In this document: positions 3,790 through 58,523 of the stretch, piece by piece | Position numbering within the stretch: position 1 is the stretch's first letter | How the letters are laid out: each line of letters opens with the position of its first letter | Assembly: GCF_000003815.2 (NCBI RefSeq) | Contig: NC_049996.1 | Span: forward strand, 9,822,010 to 9,886,009 | Direction of reading: 5' to 3' | Source: Branchiostoma floridae | Taxonomy: Eukaryota > Chordata > Leptocardii > Amphioxiformes > Branchiostomatidae | DNA length: 64,000 nucleotides | Notes under the pieces: generated by a model | Told to the model about the DNA's origin: nothing | Seen by the model: the letters and a program-made list of their open reading frames with translations, nothing else | Databases searched by the model: none | Program-made: the position numbers and the translations under genes

Positions 3790-6700
3790 ACCTTAGCCAT
3801 TCTGGCAAAGGTAATTAGCCACTCCTGTGTACAATTTTAATGTTGGTCAAAGCTGAAGCACTTAATCGCTGAATTATGTTTGATTTATCATTCGTAACAG
3901 TGAGTTACACAATTATAACACCAGACACCGTAATTGTGGAAACTCCAATACAATTCCCATAACATGTCATTAAAGTAATAAAATTTATCTTACACAACAT
4001 ATGACAATGGGGTGTCCTCAAAACGAACTATGGTTACCTTAACTATATACAGTTCGGTTCAGTTCTTAACTATATACATTCCATGACGTGCAGAAGTTCA
4101 TACAGTGGAGTTCTGTTACTGGACTTGGCAAGAACCTCAGATAAAGTCAGATAAATGGACATTGATTTGGTGATAACAGCAAAAGAGAGACGGCATCTGG
4201 AGACGAGCCAAATGCTGTTAAATTGCTCTTGTTCAGATACAAGCATTTGGGCATGCTGTTTCGATCGGTTGCTACCATACTCGCGCTGTTTTATGTACAG
4301 TGAAGTGTCACGTTTCATCTACAAGATGATTCTTTCGCCCTCATCTTGGTGTTTCAAGTTCTCTCACAATGTATATGCTCTGTAGTTGTAAATTTGACAG
4401 TAGAGGTTATGCAACTGACTTATCTAAAAGTTGCAAGTCCAAAATATTTTCCTCAAGTTGCAAGCAGGTATGATATCAATGAGCGGGCCATGTACGAAGT
4501 GTTGAAGCTGATGTGTATGTTATACGTGTTAGAAGAAAGTTCACAACAGTTTCTGTGAAACCTGTAAAAAGAATCCGCTCAGAGTTCATAGACGAAACCA
4601 TGTCATATATAGAAATATGTATTGCTTTGTAAAATGCAAATGCAAAGTTTCAGCTTCCTAGGATCCTACAAGAACGACAAGTATGTTACAGTAGCTCTAT
4701 CTTGAACTGCCCTCTTAATTGGCAGTAATAGCAGTTAGGTCAGCGCATACTCAACACTGTCTGGAAAAGTTCTCAGGTCTTAGTTTGAAGGACGGCTAAT
4801 AGAACTGTTCTGACGGACCACTCTCAAAGAGATAAGCTGATAAAAGCACCAACGTCTGCACCAATAACGCTCTTTGATGGCTGAGGCAGTCTTTTAAGCC
4901 GCTGTAGCAGTCATTTAGGTGATGGAAAAGGCCCTGAAGAAAAAGGAATCGGCTAGGTCAGCATTGAAATCGTTAAAGTATAGCAAGATTGAAATAGGGC
5001 AACTATGTTATTCGTGCTCTTACCGTTACCTTTAAAGCAGTAGGCGCATTGCCAAAAATAAAGTTGGTTCTGGCGAGACGAATTCGTGGCCCTAAAATAA
5101 CTTTGTTTACGCTCCTTATCTTACCAAATTTATATTTACATCTCTTCCTGTGGATGCCATAATGTAGTAGTCATTTAGGACGCAATAACAGTATCGCCAG
5201 TATTCCCCAAATGTCTCCGGTACGATCATAAAAAGCTTAAAGTATTGAATTTGCGGCACAATTTGTTCTGAATCCAAATAGTGAGGAAGCAAAGGCTATT
5301 AATCTTTCTCTGAAGAATGGAGAGACTTTATGATGTCTTTTCAAGTAGGGCTCAAGCCTTTCTTCCTAACCTTTTCAAAACTATAAAAGCAGCCATAGAA
5401 TATAGACACGGTCTGAGTGCGTGGATAATTCAATCATAACCCGCGGAGGCGTTTTGTTACACACTGGCGCCATTTTATCACTGGGACAGCTCACACATTT
5501 CCCCTAGGTACCAATCCTGCGGTCAATGGCTAAAACGCAGTGTAACGTCTTATAAATGTGTATACCCCCAAGGAACCCGTGCAGTGTGTGATAAGAAACT
5601 GTCAGGGTCGAATATAGCACGCGTGTTGTGGTAACAAATGGACAGGTTATAATTCCCAATTCTAGTACGTAGCTCTTATCCGATACCTTAAAGAAATTGG
5701 AAGAGCTCGGAGTAAAAGGAAGCTTAGTTCATTAAAGGGTGTTAAGGCGCCTTGCTGAAAAGTCGTGGTTTTAAGGTATGTACTTTACGAAGCTTGGAGA
5801 TGCAGCTGTGTCAAGAAGACTAAGTCTTGTCGGTGAAGGCGTCTACCGCTGGCCATCACTCAACGTAGGCGAGAGTAAGCGAAGCCCCGTTGTAAGACCA
5901 TGGGCATAGTCACTGCTATGGGCAAACTCCCGGCAAAGAAAGGTAAACAATAGCAAAAGAAGATGTACTTGGGTCTGTACAAGGAAGGACACGTTTGTGT
6001 TGAATGTTTTCAATGATTTATGTCGAATTACTTAAAAGTTATGTTACCTGCGCATAAGATAGCACACCTGGCCCACAGACAAACATAGTAATGCCCATTC
6101 GTTTGTCATACTGATCTCCTGGGTGAAACCCAAATGATGTCAGCATAGTAACAGAAATTTCATTATGATATAACATGGCTCAGGGCAAAGTGCAAAAGAT
6201 TTGACACGAAGATTTGGTGAACATTTATGATGCGTCTTTAACCCGAAGGCATTGGTCAGTATAACATATTATCATATAGCCAGATGGAGTTGGCCAATCA
6301 GAGGCCCCCATTTCCCATGGGTTATCAGGCAGTAACCTCAAAAGTGGTCGGTTATTCTAATAACCGACCACTTTTTGGACCGCACCATTATACAGGGGAC
6401 AGTCATGAATTTTTTTTGTACTGTTGTTTGTGTGTAAACCATGCATAACTGTCAAAAATATTATGATTGATTGGTTATGTTAATTAGGGCTCCACATGGG
6501 GAATATAGGGATACTTGAAAAGGAATTATGCTGATTTTACACATTTTCATTATGGCTTTCTAACGTGATTAAGCCGGTACCTTCCTAAATCACTTCATAT
6601 ATACGTACTTTGTCGTGCCCAAGTGAAAAGGCTCTGCATGGGGGGTACCAGGACTCCACTTAATACATGTAGTTTGTATTGCAAATAAGCCACATGTTGA

Positions 6701-23982: not shown

Positions 23983-26520
23983 ATGGTGAACCGAAGGCGC
24001 GTAAGTTTGTACGTTATATTACTTCTTGTGGCATGGAGTGGAACAAGCTACACGACCATCTCCTCTAGTTTGGAATGCTGTGAGACATTTCCTGGGCATG
24101 CGGGTATTCCATCGCGAGGCCTATGGTGTTTAAAAGCTTGCCGTTTCCAGCACATCCCCACTGCGATGTCACCGAATATTCAAGAGTTATCGCTTCAGCA
24201 TCAGAATATCACGAACATCAGGGTGGGAGACTTTCACGGTCTAATGTCTTTGACAGATCTGCGAATACAGGACAGTCATGTTGTGAATCTACAACCAGGC
24301 TGTTTTGAAAGCTTGACACGTCTGAACAAAGTAGATCTCCGTAGGAACAGTATCAAGCGACTGGAGGCAGAAACGTTCAAGGGACTGGAACAGCTTAGAT
24401 CTCTGAACTTGGACGATAATGAGATATATCATATTGACAATGTTGCTTTTGCGGGGCTCGTCAAACTAAGATCCTTGTCTATCAAGGATAATTGCCTTTC
24501 TGGCATTCCACAAGGTATGGAGTATATAAGTTATGTCTACTTGAATAACAATCCCATAGCATCGGTGGGAAATGTTGGAGAATTGAGGCACCACTTAACG
24601 TTGGCTTTCGATTACAAGATTCGGTGCGACTGCAGTATGAGAGAAGTCAAGAAATGGGTCCTTGAAAATGAGGAAATGCTATGGAGAATTGCGTGTATGG
24701 ATGGTGAAACTGGAAGCTTCAAGCCAATTCAAGATGTCCGTTGGGATGACCTGACGTGTGTCTCACCTGACGTGTCTATCATCACAGACAATGGAACCGT
24801 CACAGGTAACGTTTCCCTCACCTGCCAGACAGACTGTCAGGAAGGTCTAGAGTTCTCATGGGTCGCACCAAATGGAGACTACAGATCATCAACTTATGAG
24901 TTCTCCAAAAAAAAACACCCACGTCAGCAAACTGTCGTGTAAAGGGTCAAACATCGCAAGACTAGAAACGAAGAGAATGTGCTACTCTGTGTTGAGCATC
25001 CCTACGATAGGCAATGGCACTGAAGGCACGTACAGTTGTAAAGTGACGGCTAACCATACCGAGAACGGAAGTGCATCTGTAGTGTATCAGGACATAGTAG
25101 CAACTCAACAAGGCAACCTTTACATGGCTCAGCCTGACAATATTACGACAAAACCAAGTGAGAGAAGCACCGGGAAGTACAACCCTCAGCGTCTAACAAC
25201 AGTCCGGAATGCCATGGTGCCAGTAGATGGCAATACCGTTGAAAATGATACCCCAAATCGACCTCCTCCGGGACTGTCTATCGTAGAGCTTGTCTTTGCT
25301 GGACTTGCATCTTTCTTTGGAGGTTGCATTATCATTGCAGCAATAGCCGCTTGTGTTCACAAGTTTCAAGGACATAGAGCAGTAGATGGAGGCTCCGAAA
25401 ATGATGACCAGTGTTCGGGGGTGGTTGGTAGAACGGAAAGCCACTATGAGAACGACAACCAGTCTTCGGACACGGTCGCAGACACAAGTGCCAGAGGTGG
25501 CCACTACGAAAACGATGACCAGTTTGCGGCCACAGGAGGAGCTGACGGTGGACACTACGAAAACGATGGCCAGTTCTCAGACGCAGGAGGTGCCAAAAGT
25601 GGACAGTATGAGAATGATGACCAGCTCTCAGAAGCAGGAGGCGCCAGTGGTGGTCACTACGAAAATGAAGACCAGTTCTCTGAGGCTGACCCACACCACT
25701 ACGAGAATGATGACGACGACGACTTCTTAAACGCTGAAGCTGAGGGCCGGTATGATAATGATGATCAACTTTCCGCCAGTCACGTGGGCAAGAACACACA
25801 AGGGACGATCCGAGCTAAGACCACTCGGACCAAAAGCAGAATAAGTCGTGCTCACAAGAGTGATCACTTGATCAAAACAAGAGCTCTCTCCAACCACCCT
25901 AAATCAAACTTACTCCGAGTATGGTAGCATTTCATATCAAAGCACAATCACATGGACACTATGACAACGAAAGTGACGTTACCAGCAATGAAGCTCACAC
26001 ACCTTCGACCAATGGGCTATCTACAGCCACAGAACTATCGCCTGGGCATTATGATAACGACAAGAACACCAAGGATCTTGCTGCCAGCTCTTCTAACGCT
26101 ACAGGAGAGGAAGACTCAGATCCAGAATATATGACGTTCCCCGAAGCTAGCACAGAACAAGAAGCCGAAGCCAGGGAGGGAAATCTACAATGTGAGAGAG
26201 AAACCAAAGGCAAGGACACCGTCACCAGGTCTGCAAGTGATAGTGACATGTCAGATCATGGTTATATGACGTTTCCTGGGACGAAAAACGCTGACGATCA
26301 GGACATAGATACAGAAAATTGTAACGATAAAGAGCCAGAGATGGACATTGCTTCGGTTAATGAAGACGACTGTTTAGAACACACTTATGTGAAGTTTCCT
26401 GATGCGGAAGATGTTGAAGAATATCAAGAGGAGAGGGGACAGAAAAACAGACTAACATATCCAGCTGATAATGATCACGTTTACGTGACATTTCCAAGCT
26501 CGGACAATGTCAAAGAGTAA
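23983..26520 (+). CDS. single-exon LRR-Ig transmembrane receptor with tandem tyrosine motifs, frame broken twice
   Basis: About 845 residues if the breaks are ignored. Domain order: signal peptide (1-28, core VILLLVAW); Cys pair; about five or six leucine-rich repeats (60-200, e.g. LRSLNLDDNEIYHID); LRR C-cap (RCDCSMREVKKW to DLTC, about 214-263); Ig-like domain (VSLTCQ, FSWV, GTYSCKV); membrane helix (about 430-458, GCIIIAAIAACV); cytoplasmic tail. The tail has seven YEND/YDND-type motifs in roughly 17-residue repeats, two more YDN motifs and four YMTFP/YVKFP/YVTFP motifs. pY-x-N is the known GRB2-SH2 binding pattern, so an immune or adhesion signalling role is inferred. Break 1 is a run of nine A at 24907-24915; the frame that continues the Ig domain corresponds to eight. 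Break 2 lies between about 25890 and 25960, where a TAG (25925-25927) closes one frame and coding-like sequence resumes in another. It could be sequencing error, an allele or a young pseudogene. An AATAAA lies at 26973. Confidence 0.8.
25385..25780 (+). repeat. in-gene tandem repeat encoding the YENDDQ units
   Basis: Roughly 51-nt units, each centred on CACTACGAAAACGATGACCA or a variant, encode HYENDDQ plus a Gly/Ala/Ser spacer. At least seven Tyr-containing units and one degenerate unit without Tyr (SENDDQ) can be counted. The tyrosine and asparagine are kept while spacers vary, which suggests selection on the motif rather than on the DNA repeat. Confidence 0.85.
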
Positions 26521-40391: not shown

Positions 40392-41090
40392 CTTCTCGTT
40401 CTTTTCTGTCAGACAGTATAAGTAAAACGGACGGAAACAAATTAAAAGTGTTCTGTGACTTGAAAAGCGTGGAAAATGTCACTAAATTTCTGAAATTTTG
40501 TATGGGCGCCGCCCTCTTGGATATCCCGTCATGCACGGCCCTTAACTGCGCAGAACCGCTGCGCAGTGGCGTTGCCAGGGNNNNNNNNNNNNNNNNNNNN
40601 NNNNNNNNNNNNNNNNNNNNNNNNNNNNNNNNNNNNNNNNNNNNNNNNNNNNNNNNNNNNNNNNNNNNNNNNNNNNNNNNNNNNNNNNNNNNNNNNNNNN
40701 NNNNNNNNNNNNNNNNNNNNNNNNNNNNNNNNNNNNNNNNNNNNNNNNNNNNNNNNNNNNNNNNNNNNNNNNNNNNNNNNNNNNNNNNNNNNNNNNNNNN
40801 NNNNNNNNNNNNNNNNNNNNNNNNNNNNNNNNNNNNNNNNNNNNNNNNNNNNNNNNNNNNNNNNNNNNNNNNNNNNNNNNNNNNNNNNNNNNNNNNNNNN
40901 NNNNNNNNNNNNNNNNNNNNNNNNNNNNNNNNNNNNNNNNNNNNNNNNNNNNNNNNNNNNNNNNNNNNNNNNNNNNNNNNNNNNNNNNNNNNNNGGCAAC
41001 AAGGCAAACACGTCATTGTGATGACCTGTAGCCAGTGTTTTGGGCAAACTACTCCATTTTCCTCGATTAGAAACGCTCCGAACTAAAAAT
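40392..41090. promoter_or_regulatory. shared divergent promoter interval of ELP6 and ODAD4
   Basis: Only about 700 bp separate the ELP6 ATG (minus, 40391) and the ODAD4 exon 1a ATG (plus, 41091), and 414 of these are N. The visible part includes the CG-containing hairpin ACTGCGCAG/CTGCGCAGT (40543-40567 region, resembling NRF1 half-sites). RFX-type half-sites stand on either side of the gap: GTTGCC at 40571 and GGCAAC at 40995. RFX control would suit a motile-cilia gene such as ODAD4. No TATA box was seen. Confidence 0.5.
40581..40994. other. assembly gap (414 N) in the divergent promoter
   Basis: Unresolved bases. Open frames drawn across it are artefacts. Confidence 1.
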
Positions 41091-47000: not shown

Positions 47001-49168
47001 CTTCTTGACCTTATTTGTGCGAACAGAAGTTTTATTCAGTTTTTACGACAGCCACTAGATGTAATTTATGTTGATTAACAAATCCTGTATCTTTGTGTTG
47101 CAGTAATCTGGAGGATGCCCGATCGCGAGCCCTCGACAACCTCGGCAGAGTGTACGCAAGGATGGGCAAGTTTGAGAAGGCAATTGAAAAGTAAGATTTC
47201 GGAAGCAATGAAATCTTCTTGTGGAATTACATCATATGTAATGATATATAGTAGTTTATTGCAAATTCTTGCCTGAGGGTTAATTGCAGTTAACATAAGA
47301 AGGGGACAAACATGTAAGACAAACGAGTAGAACAGTATCGAATATGTCAACTTTAGTCTAAAAGCTCTAAACTGTAACTTGTTGGGTTAGACTTCTTTTC
47401 CTGAGATAGTGGAAGCTACTTTTTCTATAATGTGTGGGTTCTGTGATGTTATAGCATGAATAATAGCATCCATGAATGCTTATTACCAGCACCTCCTATC
47501 AAAATATCTTTGAACTGCACTTGGATTCATTTGCATCATTCATTCCTTTTCTTTCTATAGCTGGGAGCGCAAACTACCTATGGCAAAGACTCCTCTAGAG
47601 AAGACCTGGCTGTACCATGAGATTGGGCGCTGCAACCTGGAGCTAAACGAGAACGACGAAGCTCACAAGTACGGTGAGATGTCCTTTGCTGAGGCCCAGG
47701 AGGCCGAAGATGATGTCTGGCAGCTGAACGCAAGTGTTCTGATCGCTCAGGCAGAAGGTTGGTACTGTCATGTTTATTTCATGTAGCGTTAGTTCACCTT
47801 TATCCGCGGATAACCTATATCCGTTGTTTCTAAAAACACGGTACTTATGGACATTATGTCGACGGATGGCGGTTCCAAACTATACAACTGTGAAAATGTT
47901 GCAATTTGACATTGCCGTCCATTTACTTGATGTCCCTACATATCTTATGTTTAGAAACAACGGATATAGGTTACCCCGCGGATAAAGGTGAATTAGCGTT
48001 AAGCATGGAATGATAATGTTTCATATTTGTTTTCCCATTTATGTTTGTACCATAAGGATGTACACTGACTTTGATTGATCAAATGACAATCATTGTAGAC
48101 CTTGTCCAATGCAGGATATTCTTTTCAAGAAGTGCATCTTTCATGAAAACATGGAATGATATTGTCGGATACTTAGTTTCCTATTTATGTCTGTACAATC
48201 CACAGGAGACCATGCCAATACTGCCAAAAATTTGTCTTACAAGCAGCGACAATATTTGTGAATGCATAAATCACTTGACTGTGTTGACAGAAATTTGGGA
48301 ATGTGTGAATTATCCTGTAACTTACATAGCTCAACATACAGATTAAGAATTACATGACTTTGTATCTCCGTCTTATTGTTTTTAATTGTGTCCCATTTCT
48401 GTACAGTGAGACAAGGACAACTAGAAGGAGCGGTGCAGTCGTTTGAACGTTCGCTTGAAATGGCACAAGCACAGGGAGACACGGCCGCAGAAGTCGCCAT
48501 CAAGAGAGCTTTGGATGACGTCAACAACCGTATTGCCAAGAAAGAGAAGGACAGTCGACCGTCTTCCGCTGCAAAAGACCAGAAGACAGAGGATGATGAC
48601 AAGAAAGAACCAGAGCCAGAGCCAGGTAAGAATGACTTGAGCAAATCACATATTCAAGAAAAACATGTTCAATCTGACTAGGTTTCAATCTTATTGAATG
48701 ATATTACTCTGTACACATGACAGTATAACATGTGTATCTTGTAGATAACATTGCTGTGATAACGTGTTATATTCAGATGTTCACATGATGTTTTAGTATA
48801 AATTCATAGTCCTGCTTACTTTTTGTTCTGAATTTTTAAAAAATCATATCATTGTATCCCTGTCAATACATTACGCAGTCACGTAGCTTGTCTTGGGGAG
48901 TTAAAAAAAGCTCTACCATTTTTGCTGTCACTTCAGATTTGATGTGATTTATCCATTTTAGACCCCAAAAGTATATGATTGTAATTTCTTGCTTTCTACA
49001 GAAGCAGATGCTAACTATGAAGAAGACTTTGACAAGGAAGATGACGTCAAAGAAGAAGAACCAGTTAAGGAGGAGACAGAGGAACCTCAGGAGGAGGAGC
49101 CAGCGGCAAAGGAGGGCGGGGCATCGCCTGTCCCGGAGTTTGAGGTCCAGGAGAAGGCGGATGAGTAG
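41091..49168 (+). CDS. ODAD4: outer dynein arm docking complex subunit 4 (TTC25), 12 exons
   Basis: Exons: 41091-41210 (1a), 43314-43445, 43934-44087, 44539-44600, 44817-44985, 45351-45587, 46229-46357, 46694-46772, 47104-47190, 47561-47757, 48407-48625, 49002-49168 (TAG 49166-49168). All junctions are GT/AG with consistent phase; 583 residues (human 672). N-terminal TPRs: YLSEGDKLFDNGEYRKALES, LVARAKCYLALGDSDAALRD, GLLMKAEALYSKGDFEHSLV. Next is the family signature LVFYHRGHKLRPEVDEFRLG with IQKAQEAINNSVG, then a Lys-rich linker, TIKQLLGELYADKEYLEKLL, FWRQQKPMYARKRDK and a second TPR set including EDARSRALDNLGRVYARMGK and KTWLYHEIGRCNLEL. The C-tail is acidic. Family knowledge: it docks outer dynein arms on axonemal doublets of motile cilia. 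Exon 1a best matches the vertebrate start; 41794-42036 is an alternative. In-frame coding-like sequence follows the TAG. A polyA signal lies at 50049. Confidence 0.93.
41794..42036 (+). CDS. ODAD4: alternative first exon 1b of ODAD4
   Basis: Open from ATG 41794 (or the second ATG at 41824, MAETQAIFRANVYPEF) to TCG at 42036, followed by GTAATC. It ends in phase 0, exactly like exon 1a, so it can splice to the exon starting at 43314. It encodes 71-81 residues: a charged Lys/Glu-rich leader, then YVGEAEIFYKRGEHDKSIAS followed by YSS. This is the same TPR helix position as YLSEGDKLFDNGEYRKALES in exon 1a, with different sequence. The two look like duplicated, mutually exclusive first exons with separate promoters. 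Use of 1b would give about 614-624 residues. It may instead be an exon of a separate, lost paralogue. Confidence 0.7.
43720..43739 (+). repeat. poly(A) tract in ODAD4 intron 2
   Basis: About twenty A, after a CCCCTATGTTCCAAC-type imperfect repeat. Confidence 0.95.
46413..46490 (-). mobile_element. truncated SINE 3' end in ODAD4 intron 7
   Basis: Reverse-complement match to the tail of the SINE at 29128-29625: ATTTGTTCAGCTGTTAACAA, GCCCAACTAGCC, GGGCTATTGCCAAGAGCTAA and CCCTGG. Only the last 75 or so bases of the element are present, as expected from 5'-truncated retroposition. Confidence 0.75.
47250..47440 (+). repeat. dispersed repeat, copy 2, in ODAD4 intron 9
   Basis: Second copy of the repeat at 12514-12705, in the same orientation. 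Confidence 0.7.
47784..48001. mobile_element. fold-back MITE family M, copy 1 (ODAD4 intron 10)
   Basis: The left end reads TAGCGTTAGTTCACCTTTAT then CCGCGGATAACCTATATCCG. The right end is its inverted form (CGGATATAGGTTACCCCGCG then GATAAAGGTGAATTAGCGTT). The interior continues as an imperfect palindrome (GTCGACGGATGGC versus GCCGTCCA). 218 bp, no coding capacity. Two more copies lie at 52873-53073 and 56960-57156. Confidence 0.9.
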
Positions 49169-50670: not shown

Positions 50671-53600
50671 ATGGCAAGTGGCATTAACTTCTTGACGGTG
50701 TACATAGTAGAAGGCGGCGAAGCTGAAGACGTCGAGGAAAAGGAAAAGAAAGAAGAGGACAACGCAGAGGAAAAGAGCGAAGGCTATTTAGAGGGCCTAG
50801 AAGTTATTTCCGAAGACGAGGAAAACGTAGAGAAGGAAGAAGAAGAAGACGAGGAGGAGGAAGGACGAAGGACTGCTAAACAAAACGCCACTATCGCCGT
50901 CATGGTCGTTCTTAAGGTTTTCGGGTTCGCCTTATTTATCAACTACATTGTCAACGTCGCCGGCCAGAAGGGTAAGTTGATCTATAGTATACAGTTATTT
51001 TCATTACGCCAAATACTCAAGCTGGATGTGATTTTGGAAACACTCAGGAAATTTTGTTGGAGAGCAGGTTTTGTACCCTATCGATTTATACGTAAAATTA
51101 TTACACTACTTTACTTTGACCTCCAAGAGTTCAAGGAGTAAATGCTGTTATTTTGAAATTAAGAGTATCAAGAAACAGCTCCGCCTAGACTTTGTGGTCT
51201 TGGACGCGAATAAGAAAACAACTTGAATATTGAGAGTAAAGGCTAGATCATGGTGCTATTTCGTGTGGGTGCAAAAGTGGTATGGACACATTCCATACGG
51301 TATGGAATGTTGTGTTTCTCCGTCAAGTTTCCGTTTTGAGAATCAGAGATAGAATTAGTAGAGTTAAAATCACACATAACAAGTCACTACTTGTCTCACA
51401 TATAGTGCCTTTTATGTTTTATTGCCCGCTATTTTGTAGTTAACGTACGTCACGTACGTCACAGGTGCTTTAAACCCCTGTCACACGTAGGCGCCAATGA
51501 CCATATGGCCTCCCGTGAACAGGCTTATCTCTTGTTTGGAGTTGTCAATCTTTAAAAGTCGTCTGCGTCAGCCGACTACGAAATTTAAAGAAAAGTAAAA
51601 GTCTTATTCTTGGATCTGGAATAGGCTAGGATGGATACCGGCTACTTGTAACACTCCGTTGGGGAGCGGTCGGGAACATGAGAATCATGAGAAGGCCCCG
51701 AATGTGTGACTGATAGCGGCGTTAGAAATGTTTTGTCGTTCAGGTTGGGCATGCCGTCTGTAATACTACTTTGAAGTGTACCAAATTCTTAGCTTCAGCC
51801 AAGAAAAGAATCCCATCCGCTTTTATAGTGTGGCTGATTGAGCCTGAGTTTTACAGAATGGTGAAACACAATTTTGCACTGCGTCACAGAGTGCCGTGAG
51901 ATGATAAACTATGGAGTTGATTGGACGCATTCTTGGCCTTATCGTAAACAAGTACGGAAGAAATCTCCTTGATTGGAATTTATGGCACTGTCTGCTCCTG
52001 ACACACACATGCCCAAATACGTCATTAATGACGACATTACACTGATTACAGTGAATTTGCCCCTTTTGGGGTATAGTATGGCGAAGGTTGATCACTGTTC
52101 TTGGTGCTGATTGGCTGTTTTGAATCGTGAGCCTGTCCTTTATTCTGAATGATTGTTTACATCTGAACACCACGTTGAGTAACGTTTCGACAGAACGTAT
52201 CGTATAAGGTAGTTTTTGCGTATTCACGATAATATCTATAACGTTATACGTTTAAAATCTTGTGTCGGAATTTCAAAAGATATGACATGCAACGGACGAA
52301 ATTCTGATGCAACGTCGACCAAACACCCATCGAAAACTGTGACGAATTCTTTAGCACTGCAAGACAACTCCCGTAAATGTCTGATAACACGTTACAAATA
52401 AGGAACCATGCTGGTCAGGGGTTAGAGGGTGTCTAGTTATTGTTGACATTTGACGTGACACTGATAAGTCCCACTGACGTGACACTGATAGGTTGGGCCC
52501 TGTAATTGGTGCTGATTAGCTGGTTTGAATTTTGGGACCTGTCCTTGGTGCTAATTGGCTGGTTTGAATTTTGGGACCTGTCCTTGGTACTGATTGGCTG
52601 GTTTGAATTTTGGGACCTGTCCTTGGTGCTGATTGGCTGGTTTGAATTTTGGGACCTGTCCTTGGTGCTGAATGTGCTATTACCAACCATGAGGAAACCC
52701 ACGTCGTTTTTACTGCCATGAAAATACTCCCTGAATAACACTACAATCTTTCATTGTAGAGAAATTAATAAGTATGAAAGAAGTGAGACTGATTTATATG
52801 TCAAACATCGCAGCCTAAATTCTGATTTGCGTTGTAGGGATAAACACTAAGTTCCTAGAGGTTGGAGGACTGTAACCTTAGTTCACCTTTATCCGTATGG
52901 TAACCTATATCCGCTGTGTTGCTAAACAGGGTATCCTGGGATATCGAGTCGACGGACAATAGTTTCAAATTGTATTATTTTCAAAATATTGCAGTTTGAA
53001 ACCACCATCTGTCGACTTGCTATCCCTAAATACATTGTGTTTAAAAAGAACGGATAAAGGTGAACAAGGGTTAACACGTTAAAGTCCTCTTCTTCAGTAT
53101 TTCAACCACGTTTCCTGAAACTCTGCCCGTGTAGCGTACGACTCGTGCAGCGTGCCGGGAGAGAAGCGGCAGGCCTGCGGTAGCTGGAAGACCAGCGAGC
53201 GGGAGTGTATCGACATGGGGTGCTGCTACCGCTCGCCCTTCAGCGTGCCGAACGCGCCCTGGTGCTACCATACAGCATCAGAAGAAGAAAGTGCGTTGGA
53301 ATCGACATTACATTTCATAGTTGAAACATACTCATCTAATACAAAAGTATCTGATCTTTCCACTTTTAGAGGACCTAATGTTAACGTTATACCTGGCTGG
53401 TGAAGTCGTTAAATTGCACACCCCATTTGCCAGCGTAGTTCGTGCATTTATCATGTTGGTGCAATACTGCGAAGTTATCCAGCTGGACTGCACCGGATTG
53501 GGATTCGGGGATTCAGTGCAATTTGAGGAAGTGCGCGGTAATCCGCTATGCAATTAATTGGCTTCTACAGTATTTAGATTTGAAGTTCACAAATGATTTT

Positions 53601-56083
53601 ATGATACAGTTTAAAGTGCCCTTTACTGAACAAAAGAACGGAGAACAAAAGTCTGGGCTGTTCACAAACAAGCTTATTGCACGTACTACGACAGAATACA
53701 GATTTCTTCAACTAGTTCATGGCTCCTCATTTATCGTTTGATAGCTGTGATTTAATGAAAGGTATGCATCTATTTGAGTGTTGAAATATCTTCCGTTCTT
53801 CCAGCCAACAACTGGTTCCTGGGCTCCTCATCTGAAGAGGACGGTAGTGAGGAGAAGGGCTCAGACAAGGACACCGCTGTTGGATTAGGTAAAGATGAAC
53901 AAATTAGTCATTTCTTTGAGAGATAGGAATATTGCACCTTAAATATTCAACATACTTACCAAATAGATTGACGCTAATATCGGCGGTCAAGCTGCTATAC
54001 TTTGATTTTGTTCAAGTCTGTCTGGCAAAAAAAAAAAAACTGCCATAAGATGTCCAAAATTCGAACCATGTCTAATAAGACTGTAGTTTGGTAGTTTAGA
54101 TCAAAAGCATGCTGTGATTTGACAACGTATTCTGACAAGTCATTTTTGTACTTTGTGACTTTTTCCTGTGCAGGATCAATCATGGATCGGCTGTTTGGGC
54201 GTGAAGAAACTGTGAGTGACTGTTCAGAATCAGTATGCGAACATTTGTCTCTGTAAGATGATTATATTTAGTCGTCAATAGAAGTTTTTAAAAAAAGTTT
54301 GGCAAGCCCAATTTTCACACTATTACAAACATAAAACCCTGTGCATTGCAACAATTTTGGTATTACCCTTGGCATACACTTTGAATCACTGATTGTGATT
54401 TATTGTAATATGTGCTATGATGGTGATGTGAAACTGTTTGGTAACTTACCATTTAGTACACAGTGGAGATGTGACAATCATATTGAACTGAAACAGCACT
54501 TTATTGATGTCCAATTCAATGCTGTAATTTCTGCACAACAGGAGGATCCTGCTTTGGCCAACCCTCCTGACAAGCCTCATCACAGCTTGCACCGGCGCTC
54601 ACCTGATGGGCATGATGGGATGCCTCCCAACCATCGTGGGGACACAAATATCCGCAACTGTGACAAAACTCCCCATCATGGCAGCCCTGGTCATCCTCCC
54701 CATCATGCCCCTGAGACTCCTCCCCATCATGCCCCTGGTCATCCTCCCCATCATGCCCCTGAGACTCCTCCCCATCATGCCCCTGGTCATCCTCCCCATC
54801 ATGCCCCTGAGACTCCTCTCCATCATGCCCCTGAGACTCCTCTCCATCATGCCCCTGGGAATCCTCCCCATCATGCCCCTGGGGATCTTTCCCATCATGC
54901 CCCCAACAATCCTCCCCATCATGTCCCTGAAACTCCTCTCCATCATGCCCCTGAGACTCCTCCCCATCATGCCCCTGAGACTCCTCCCCATCATGCCCCT
55001 GAGACTCCTCCCCATCATGCCCCTGAAACTCCTCCCCATCATGCCCCTGAGACTCCTCCCCACCGTGACCATGGTCCCTCACAACATCCCAACCCTCCTC
55101 CTCAGCATGATCCCGCACTTCACCCAAAACATGAACTAAAGCCCCCACACAATGATCTCAAACACCCTCAGAAACCAGCCTCTGGCCACCACCCCCCTCC
55201 AGCCAAGACACACCATAAAGAATCGAGGAATGAGGAAACGCCGATTGACTGTCATCATAACATGATGTGTCGTCTGGGAGCATTTGAGACTGGACATGGT
55301 AAAGCACTTCTAAAGTTTTATGTTTGGTCACTTTAAAAGCTCTGTTTGTGAAATGTCTAACGTTATAATTCAACATTTGCTCTCATCAACAAATTTTGAC
55401 AGGGATCTGATGAAAGTATTGTAATGTTGTTGCTAACAAATTGATGCATATGTCATGTAACTTTCAAATATCATAATGAAAGCACTTCATACAGTCTATT
55501 CATTATGCTATCACAATATTTCTTCAGTGTGTGTGTGTGTGTGTTGTATGTATGTGTGTGTGTGTTTGTTTATGTGAGTCTGTGTGTGTTTGAGAGTCTA
55601 TCTGTATGTGTGTGTGTGTCTGTATGTATGTATGTTTGTGTCTGTGTGCATGTATATTCCACAAATATACCAATTCCCAAACCTGGAATAACATCTGTAA
55701 ACCATGACACATCTGTTCTTCCAGCTGTCATCAACGGCCTGCCAGCTAACCCAGCCGTGCGCCGCCTCCTCCTGGGTCTGTCCTACGCTTTCATGATCGG
55801 GATAGTGGGGTTTTTCATCCTCCAATGCTACTGCTTCTTAAAGAAGACTCCAGAGGATGAGGAAAACAAAGCGCCGGAATCTGACGGTACTGAAGACAAG
55901 AAGGGGCCGCCTGCGACTTTCTGTGTGGAAGCTGAAGGGAATGAGAAGGTTCTACCTGTGACGATTGTGGAGGCTGGGGACTACGCCGACCCCTGGAGCG
56001 ATCGTGATGATGTCATCATCAGCCCTGAGGAGCTGAAAGCACTGATGACTAAACTCCAGGAGGAAGAAAGCAGCAAGGGATAG
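50671..56083 (+). CDS. predicted two-pass membrane protein with trefoil domain and His/Pro octapeptide repeats, 6 exons
   Basis: Exons: 50671-50971, 53135-53290, 53805-53888, 54174-54211, 54542-55298, 55725-56083 (TAG 56081-56083). GT/AG junctions and phases close at 564 residues. Residues 1-70 are strongly acidic (Glu/Asp/Lys). A membrane helix follows (about 73-95, VMVVLKVFGFALFINYIV). Residues 106-148 are a P-type trefoil domain with all six cysteines (DSC, QACGSW, REC, MGCCYRSP, APWCYH), in a symmetric phase 1-1 exon. Next is an acidic Ser-rich linker, then exon 5 with fifteen HHAPETPP-type octapeptides and a His/Pro-rich extension. A second helix (about 461-483, YAFMIGIVGFFILQCYCF) precedes an acidic C-tail (SPEELKALMTKLQEEE). 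Trefoils fold outside the cytosol, so the loop is inferred to be luminal or extracellular with both ends cytosolic. Histidine-rich loops can bind metal or sense pH; that role is speculative. I know no protein with this architecture. PolyA signal at 56642. Confidence 0.75.
51444..51463. promoter_or_regulatory. tandem CGTCA (CRE half-site) repeat in intron 1 of the trefoil gene
   Basis: ACGTACGTCACGTACGTCAC carries two identical 9-bp steps, each with a CREB half-site. It lies about 470 bp inside intron 1. No other support for function. Confidence 0.3.
52500..52672 (+). repeat. 39-bp tandem repeat, four copies, with CCAAT boxes
   Basis: Four near-identical units read CTGATTGGCTGGTTTGAATT then TTGGGACCTGTCCTTGGTG. 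ATTGG (the complement of CCAAT) is intact in three units and in an isolated related unit near 52105-52140 (CTGATTGGCTGTTTTGAATC). It sits in intron 1 of the trefoil gene. Its frames are open on both strands only because the unit is a multiple of three; it is not coding. Confidence 0.9.
52873..53073. mobile_element. fold-back MITE family M, copy 2 (trefoil gene intron 1)
   Basis: The left end TAACCTTAGTTCACCTTTAT then CCGTATGGTAACCTATATCC is inverted at the right end (AACGGATAAAGGTGAACAAG then GGTTA). The interior palindrome is shared with copy 1 (GTCGACGGACAATAG versus CATCTGTCGAC). It ends about 60 bp before the trefoil exon acceptor. Confidence 0.88.
54673..55064 (+). repeat. 24-bp coding repeat (HHAPETPP units)
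   Basis: About fifteen copies of a 24-bp unit (CATCATGCCCCTGAGACTCC then TCCC) encode octapeptides HHAPETPP, HHAPGHPP, HHAPGNPP and variants. The arrangement of ETPP and GHPP types suggests expansion first as a 48-bp dimer, then as single units. The unit has no stop in several frames, so long open frames on the opposite strand are by-products. Confidence 0.92.
55526..55650 (+). repeat. (GT)n-rich microsatellite in trefoil gene intron 5
   Basis: Interrupted GT/TATG-rich low-complexity sequence upstream of the last exon. The frame that runs through it into exon 6 is not coding before the acceptor at 55724. Confidence 0.9.
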
Positions 56084-58523
56084 AGGCCTGGAAACAGCAA
56101 CCCCAAAATGCTGAAAATCCCATATCAGATGACATGGAAACACTTTGCATGTGACATTAGTTACTAAATGCTTTTAAAGCAACTGAAAGTCCAGGCTTAT
56201 GTTGTTACATATTTTCTCTTCTAAAGAAATTATTCAAGTTCAAAGGTAGATCTAAGTGAAACTAATATTAACACATTATCCTTAAAGTTTATGATTTTGA
56301 AATGTATAAAATCTGCACTTAGCTGTGATGAAAGGTTTCATTTTGTTAACCTAAGAGTATCATATTATAGAATGGAAGTTTTTAATGGCACAATAAGTTG
56401 TCAGGCTCTTAGCCAACAAGGTTTAAATCTTCATCTTTTCAAACCTGCTGATATTACAATAACTTGAACATTAATATACAAGCAACAAAGAACAACAATC
56501 TGACAACACTTGGCACTTCACAAAGACTTGTATTCAAATTTTCACAAAATACATTTCACATCAATACAGATATATGTTACTAGTAACATCTAGGGGGTTA
56601 AGAAAATACTGATAACCATGATCACAGATCTAGGAATATGCAATAAACACATTGCTACATACAAAGTAATTCTTGTATCTTTTTCCACAAAGTGGTTCAA
56701 CAAATTTTAGGATTTTCCTCGTGATCATTCTGGCGATAGGTACTTTGTTTCGACTGAAGGAAAATTTACATTGCCTGTGGCTATCCAACTGGTGTATGGC
56801 ACACATTTGTTCTGTATTAGGGTCTCTGACAAAAACAAAAAATTTAGCTTGGACAGAGTAATGTTGTCTGCTATATCCTAGCCTGGTCTGATTGCAGCAG
56901 GACCAGAAATGTCCCTCTCAAACCTTTAAAGACTGGTTTCCCTGGTGAACAAACCACGCTAACGTTAGTTCACCTTTATCCGTGGGTTAACCTATATCCA
57001 AAGTATTACATGAAACGGGTATTTACGTTTAAAATGCCAAAATGCTGTATTTTGAAAATATTGCCCATTTGATATCCATCCCCTGACATACTCTGTTACA
57101 ATACCTTATAAAGAACGGATATAGGTCACCCCGTGAATAAAGGTGAACTAGCGTTACACGTACAGTGGAAGTAAGTTTAAAAACACTCCTTCCCAAATTT
57201 CCTGTCTGATTATTACAATCTTCTATCCCATCCATACATAGACTAGTTGGTCCCGTAAATTCACAAACTTCTTTGATACAAAAATATACAGCCTAAAATT
57301 AGATCACATACACAGGAACATGTAGTGCACTTATTGATATAGACACAGAGTGGGTTACAGGCACACACTGGACACTTCATACTCAGTCTATATTCTATGG
57401 TCTCCCATATATGGGATAATGTCTTGAACAATACCCCTTAAAATGACAGGTAACATTTAGGATTTTTGACAAGAGATTGCCATTGTGACGATTGTCTACT
57501 ACATATAGATTTACCCAAGGGGTTTTCATATTGATAATTATGTGCAAATATTGCACATTACATTTAATGCAAATTAATAGTACACAGTCACCTTTTTCAA
57601 TTTCCAATACATAAGAAAACACTTTAAGATTCGACATTCAAGATTTCAGAACTGATAAAAAAGATCTATTTGATTTTGATAATGAATATTAGATGTTGCA
57701 TTAAATAATCGTGAGAAATTCAATGTACACGTTGTATCGCCAGGCCAACATAAGTCAACGTTGTGATCTTAAAGAAGACCAAAGACATTTTTTGCTTGTC
57801 AATGATAACATGATTGTACATGTAACTTTAACTTATAAGCTACCACAGTCCCTGACCCTCAAGATGGGGATGGAACAAGGTGAAGATGATATAACATTTA
57901 GTCACCAAATTTGGCAACACTTCAACTCCAAATGTAGGTTAAAATCACAATTTCCATTTGTAGGATGAGTGTCATTTTTGCTTTAGCCCTGTATCACTGT
58001 ACATGTATCTATGGACAGTATGCAACAATATTTTTCATGGCTATGTACCACACTTTTGACAACACTGACATGTTAAAGTTCCACATAAAGAGCATAATCA
58101 AACCTTACATTTCAACTACATCACTGGAAAATACACACTTACAGTCTACAGGTTATGATATACATTGTACATGCATAACTCATCACTGGACATAACATAT
58201 AAGACAAAAACATACAATCTAAAAGCATCATGGCATTCCACATTAGACAATACAAAAGTTCTGCATTTCACTTGCAATAAATATTCCAGGCCTTTCTGTG
58301 GTTGTTCATTATTTTAAGCTATTAAAGATATTACACTTTTTCTCTATATTTCATATGTTAGATATTACTTGCAAAACTTCCCAAGAAATGGCAGGTTACA
58401 TTTAAGAATTTTGACAAAAGATTGCCTTTGTGACGATATAATTTCAGCCCAATCATCATTCAGCCCAAACATTTTGAAAATCAAAATTTTAATGTTGCTT
58501 GGTAATTAGAATGTCAAGTGGTT
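56084..58523. other. convergent intergenic region between the trefoil gene and PRMT2
   Basis: Includes the trefoil gene 3' UTR (polyA signal 56642-56647) and MITE copy 3 (56960-57156). No further coding sequence is recognised. AGGTTACATTTAAGAATTTT near 58391 echoes AGGTAACATTTAGGATTTTT near 57450, a small duplicated phrase. Confidence 0.5.
56960..57156. mobile_element. fold-back MITE family M, copy 3
   Basis: The left end TAACGTTAGTTCACCTTTAT then CCGTGGGTTAACCTATATCC is inverted at the right end (AACGGATATAGGTCACCCCG then TGAATAAAGGTGAACTAGCG). 197 bp. Its interior is shorter and more diverged than in copies 1 and 2. Confidence 0.88.

Follow-up and report, generated by a model that had tools for sequence, protein, structure and literature searches.

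A predicted two-pass membrane protein with a trefoil and a His/Pro-rich loop in the lancelet Branchiostoma floridae

Results

A six-exon gene model between ODAD4-like and PRMT2-like genes

We analyzed a 64-kb stretch of contig C18 of the Branchiostoma floridae genome, referred to below as the window. Positions are numbered from its first nucleotide. The features of the locus are as follows.

Upstream: ODAD4 (TTC25)-like gene; PDB match to ODAD4 from two joined ORF pieces (E 2e-39)
50671-50971, forward strand: exon 1, encoding the acidic N-terminal tail (aa 1-71) and the first predicted membrane segment (aa ~72-98), ending in phase 1
50902-50904, forward strand: internal in-frame ATG (Met78), an alternative start with G at both -3 and +4
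53135-53290, forward strand: exon 2, trefoil exon, phase 1-1
53146-53271, forward strand: trefoil (PF00088) core, 36.6 bits in a whole-genome scan
53805-53888, forward strand: exon 3, Ser/acidic linker, phase 1-1
54174-54211, forward strand: exon 4, 38-nt linker, phase 1 to 0, the weakest of the six exons
54542-55298, forward strand: exon 5, His/Pro-rich loop, ending in phase 1
54701-55060, forward strand: octapeptide array of fifteen 24-bp units (aa 247-366)
55725-56083, forward strand: exon 6, second predicted membrane helix (aa ~455-485) and acidic C-tail with a predicted helix at its end
56081-56083, forward strand: stop codon TAG, in exon 6
Downstream, reverse strand: PRMT2-like gene; joined pieces match PRMT2 in the PDB (1e-61)

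The PRMT2-like gene also had SH3 and PRMT_C above the Pfam cut-off in two of the ten pieces scanned. When the ORF lists were read by eye, no further forward-strand gene was seen in the interval between the ODAD4-like and PRMT2-like genes. The human TFF/PRMT2 region is on chromosome 21.

It had been proposed that the six exons belong to one gene, and the model bore this out. All borders are GT/AG, the phases close over all six exons, and splicing gives a single 1695-nt frame of 564 codons plus the stop, in which exons 1 to 3 each end in phase 1 as predicted. We scored the splice sites with a textbook matrix. The exon 1 donor ranked in the top 0.14% of all GT, and the acceptors of exons 3 and 4 in the top 0.27% and 0.51%; the remaining seven of the ten sites were ordinary (top 3-9% of all GT/AG). 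A competing exon 2 acceptor at 53097 was ruled out, since the reading frame of the trefoil opens no earlier than 53119. Downstream of exon 6, a polyA signal motif occurs at 56642.

Coding potential was assessed as the mutual information (MI) between base and codon position, compared with a resampled null and with 88 overlapping 231-nt windows over the five introns, among which the largest value was 0.072. The segment encoding aa 1-77 reached 0.179 (resampled mean, 0.018), exceeding every one of the 88 equally long intron windows. The sequences flanking the octapeptide array were also periodic (left, 0.178; right, 0.112), as were the C-tail (0.101), the second helix together with the tail (0.063, with 0 of 2000 resamples as high) and the trefoil (0.093, p 0.006). 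The linker exons 3 and 4 showed no significant three-base periodicity (0.049, p 0.20).

The ordinary splice sites and the non-periodic linker exons would fit exons that do not share one mRNA, or a main product that omits the trefoil; exons 2 and 3, being symmetric, could be skipped as cassettes without a frame shift. We regard this as highly unlikely, given the closing phases and the lack, by eye, of another forward-strand gene between the neighbors. Moreover, the exon 1 frame runs on for about 55 codons beyond its donor before it meets a stop (51139-51141) and exon 6 has no Met upstream of its membrane helix, so neither exon could easily be an independent gene.

Searching the genome with exon 1 returned one match, itself, while with exon 6 the only hit besides itself was not significant (E 0.58). 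All eight genome matches to the exact DNA of an array unit pair were at this locus, in a search that diverged copies would escape. Judged from sequence, the locus is a coherent, apparently single-copy gene prediction whose parts are familiar and whose arrangement is unusual.

The window also contains a MITE-like element of about 200 bp in three copies (47791-47994, 52873-53073 and 56960-57156) with terminal inverted repeats around AGTTCACCTTTATCC. This motif had 6 matches in the window at up to 3 mismatches, against 0.17 expected, and the copy at 47791-47994 was placed from motif matches alone. One copy stops 61 bp upstream of the trefoil exon. Intron 1 carries a 39-bp minisatellite of 4.6 copies (52493-52671), and a run of undetermined bases at about 40580-41000 gives X in the translations.

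Two membrane segments and two possible translation starts

Hydropathy analysis of the 564-aa product passed only two segments, aa 69-99 and aa 455-488. On a membrane-insertion scale, the second helix scored about -1.7 and the first a marginal -0.2, with the next best segment at +2.2. AlphaFold, run without an alignment, placed helix 2 at aa 455-485 with a block pLDDT of 83-96. It also modeled a short helix at the C-terminal end of the tail; the middle of the tail fell below 55. The two segments bracket the trefoil, in line with the predicted placement of this domain between two helices. Because each helix has positive charges on either side, the charge distribution does not discriminate between topologies. 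Trefoil disulfides require the secretory lumen; consequently both tails would be cytosolic if helix 1 is an anchor, and the C-tail alone if translation starts at Met78.

By the start-codon context rule, the ATG contexts favor Met78 over Met1, which has T at -3. With Met78 as the start, the first helix could instead serve as a cleaved signal peptide. The protein would then be a type I single-pass protein with an N-terminal extracellular trefoil like that of secreted TFFs, though tethered by helix 2. The hydrophobic stretch that begins right after Met78 and ends shortly upstream of the trefoil exon would suit such a protein, as would the marginal score of helix 1 as an anchor. Against this, the periodicity of the segment encoding aa 1-77, more than the intron maximum, indicates that the acidic tract is probably translated, and favors a start at Met1 and an uncleaved anchor. 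This argument is weakened by a 24-bp short tandem repeat within the acidic tract (50812-50870), whose period, a multiple of three, may inflate the periodicity there. Taking both sides together, we consider the single-pass protein distinctly unlikely and the two-pass membrane architecture likely.

The acidic N-terminus that had been predicted is evident in the composition of aa 1-71, which include 29 Asp or Glu. A short similarity links the two tails: aa 8-20 (50692-50730, LTVYIVEGGEAED) and part of the exon 6 C-tail (LPVTIVEAGDYAD) are identical at 7 of 13 positions, a match that was picked after inspection and was reached in 24 of 5000 shuffles. Because these 13 residues were selected post hoc, we treat the match as a lead only. 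The best score between the whole tails was not significant, being equaled in 587 of 5000 shuffles.

A recently homogenized array within a His/Pro-rich loop

The loop between the predicted helices (aa 99-455, ~357 residues) contains 56 His, 72 Pro and 9 Cys, six of them within the trefoil and three (233, 430 and 436) standing alone in exon 5. When 846 overlapping 60-residue windows were taken from the open frames of the 64 kb, the 21 highest His+Pro counts all fell in the exon 5 frame, which upholds the description of this loop as His/Pro-rich. The same scan turned up an open frame on the reverse strand, at about 25360-25730, with repeated GHxFRS-like His-rich stretches.

The array had been described as fifteen HHAPxxPx octapeptides. 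Fifteen units are indeed present and all 15 open with a His pair, but the strict motif holds in 13 of them; the other two begin with HHVP or read HHAPGDLS. Within the HHAP half of the unit, minor letters occupy 2 of 180 cells even when third positions are counted, and codon position 2 is the most variable, with 14 minor cells versus 5 and 6 at the other positions. Changes in the coding frame comprise 22 non-synonymous and 3 synonymous (dN/dS ~2.4), and the other five frames gave 2.82, 1.06, 1.77, 1.14 and 0.64, the lowest being a reverse frame. As the ratio of the coding frame is not the lowest of the six, the array offers no support for this frame over the others. We likewise rejected the open frame of the array as coding evidence, because the repeat period is divisible by three, because further frames also stay open across the array, and because changes in this frame lack a synonymous bias. 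The array is the product of recent homogenization without purifying selection.

It follows from the non-synonymous excess and the ratio not being the lowest that the octapeptides need not be functional. The array might be a neutral, recently expanded minisatellite that arose in a prior His/Pro-rich disordered loop and has no sensing role of its own. Its near-uniform HHAP half, the variability at codon position 2 with a high dN/dS and its use of CAT for all 32 His codons all fit such an origin, the right flank having a mix of CAC (7) and CAT (8). The left flank also uses both His codons (CAT 6, CAC 2), and Pro in the right flank is spelled in four codons. These His/Pro-rich flanks with mixed codons imply that the His/Pro loop is probably older than the present array. 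That the flanks are also periodic suggests that the composition has been kept, which, with the His pair opening every unit, counts against a neutral array. We consider the neutral array somewhat unlikely. Judged by composition, the His/Pro region may sense metal or pH.

A divergent trefoil lacking a TFF ligand residue

The prediction of a complete six-Cys trefoil was confirmed with PF00088, which scored 31.8 bits in the whole 564-aa protein and 37.6 bits in the exon alone (curated cut-off, 21) and also exceeded the cut-off in the genome scan. Trefoil was the sole Pfam family above cut-off in the 564-aa product. The genome scan covered 431 contigs (513 Mb) and found at least 44 stretches above the cut-off, 41 of them distinct. 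The trefoil of this gene is at most 41% identical to any other of the 44 and has the longest end branch in the 44-row tree (1.64 versus a median of 0.12). It had no well-supported partner in this tree, which is built on few columns and leaves most forks unresolved.

We examined the residues that correspond to the TFF ligand site. According to PMC7221086, the disaccharide bound to TFF3 is touched only by the side chains of Asp20 and Trp47, the affinity of TFF3 D20A for mucin is barely detectable, and an Asn-to-Ala change at the matching position of TFF1 lowers mucin affinity. In PDB alignments, the residue before Cys2 that aligns with TFF3 Asp20 is Ala in this gene, while the residue before Cys6 is Trp. 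Among the 44 trefoils of the genome, the residue before Cys2 is D in 27, E in 6, P in 6, N in 4 and A in this gene alone. Trp precedes Cys6 in 24 of the 44, this gene among them, and 20 combine it with D or N before Cys2. Given Ala at the position of the TFF3 ligand Asp, a TFF-type lectin action is unlikely and another ligand is possible. We therefore rejected a TFF-like lectin on the Asp-to-Ala change, even though the ligand Trp is kept; lectin function has probably been lost in this trefoil. With 564 aa and two predicted helices, the product also departs from the small, secreted, helix-free form of a TFF.

A single-sequence model of the trefoil exon had a mean pLDDT of 55.7, so that structural matches to it are weak support. 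Foldseek against the PDB up to E 10 returned three matches, none significant: TFF3 (0.056), TFF1 (0.18) and a chain of an egg-coat (ZP1/ZP3) filament (1.8).

We also compared the predicted splice sites around the trefoil stretches of the genome. Among the 36 stretches whose donor passed the threshold, 31 had a phase 1 site as their best-scoring donor, and for the best acceptor the count was 23 of 25; the donor fell below threshold in 8 of the 44 stretches, this gene's included, and the acceptor in 19. Phase 1-1 is thus usual for the trefoils of this genome, and this fits the suggestion that the trefoil exon was gained by exon shuffling.

Elsewhere in the genome, six near-identical trefoil exons (L035, L036, L037, L038, L040 and L041; five on contig C2, one on C11) carry Pro immediately ahead of Cys2 and Ala ahead of Cys6, and so are without both TFF ligand side chains. 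In L030 (about 4632-5141), three trefoils whose Cys spacing is altered (GCMWC/GCVWC/GCFWC) follow a possible signal peptide in one open frame.

Discussion

A close likeness to the order of parts in this gene is the N-terminus of the type II membrane glycosidases sucrase-isomaltase (SI) and maltase-glucoamylase (MGAM), in which a charged tail and a membrane anchor are followed by a lumenal trefoil. The lancelet genome has three exons of this kind (L020, L024 and L029), each encoding a charged tail, a helix and a trefoil, within about 90 kb on contig C12. The L029 exon matched MGAM (3e-31), SI (5e-12) and also GAA in the PDB; Pfam found only the trefoil in the L020 and L029 exons. In these three, helix and trefoil share one exon, whereas in the gene described here they are on separate exons, and the 44-row tree placed its trefoil apart from theirs with weak support. 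In SI and MGAM, moreover, a glycosidase follows the trefoil, while here we found no enzyme family and the loop ends in a second helix. Membership in the SI/MGAM (GH31) group was rejected because Pfam detected no glycosidase family in the product and the helix preceding the trefoil is encoded by an exon of its own. The arrangement was originally called unfamiliar, and this needs dividing: a helix followed by a trefoil is known from the SI type and from L020, L024 and L029, but the second helix, the absence of an enzyme and the His/Pro loop are new.

Other trefoil proteins resemble the product in part. TFF1-3 are its nearest solved relatives and share the ligand Trp, but they have Asp or Asn where it has Ala, and it is by prediction a membrane protein. 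Concerning ZP1/ZP4, Pfam found no ZP family in the 564-aa product. P-domain mucins, such as the frog integumentary mucins, also place a trefoil beside a Pro-rich tandem array, but the array here is His-rich, has only 11 Ser/Thr in 120 residues and is accompanied by predicted membrane helices. Histidine-rich glycoprotein also has tandem His/Pro repeats, and its His/Pro-rich region responds to metal and pH; its repeat and its membrane context are unlike those of the lancelet gene. A literature search, most subscription papers being outside its reach, returned no membrane-held trefoil of this kind, and the trefoils mentioned in six passages of PMC8878817 are beta-trefoils. Three mammalian trefoil clades are distinguished in PMC7221086: glycosidases, TFFs and zona pellucida proteins.

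We propose, tentatively and as a plausible account of the whole, that the gene encodes a single-copy lancelet two-pass protein with cytosolic ends, a non-lectin trefoil and a proton- or metal-responsive His/Pro spacer. Helix 1 would act as an uncleaved signal anchor and place the trefoil in the lumen or outside the cell, allowing its three disulfides to form, and helix 2 would bring the chain back to the cytosol. The trefoil might serve as a membrane-near protein-binding or structural knot rather than as a lectin for alpha-GlcNAc. The His/Pro stretch would be an extended spacer taking up protons or Zn/Cu, and this uptake could lead to a change of charge or a cross-link on an acidic, mucin-like or granule matrix, while the acidic tails may provide cytosolic anchorage. 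The responsive-spacer step, read from residue composition, is doubtful when taken by itself.

A bolder version is speculative and quite improbable. It would make the protein an invention of the lancelet lineage, in which a phase 1-1 trefoil exon entered a two-pass protein and the trefoil, its sugar binding lost, became a disulfide anchor for a lumenal His/Pro brush. The brush would sense pH or Zn/Cu and signal through two acidic cytosolic tails with a common short motif.

If confirmed, the gene would represent a trefoil architecture outside the three mammalian clades set out in PMC7221086, and would provide a testable example in which exon shuffling carried a trefoil into a membrane loop and the lectin Asp was lost. 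It would then offer a route to ask what roles trefoils have beyond sugar binding, and whether a His/Pro brush senses pH or metal at the membrane.
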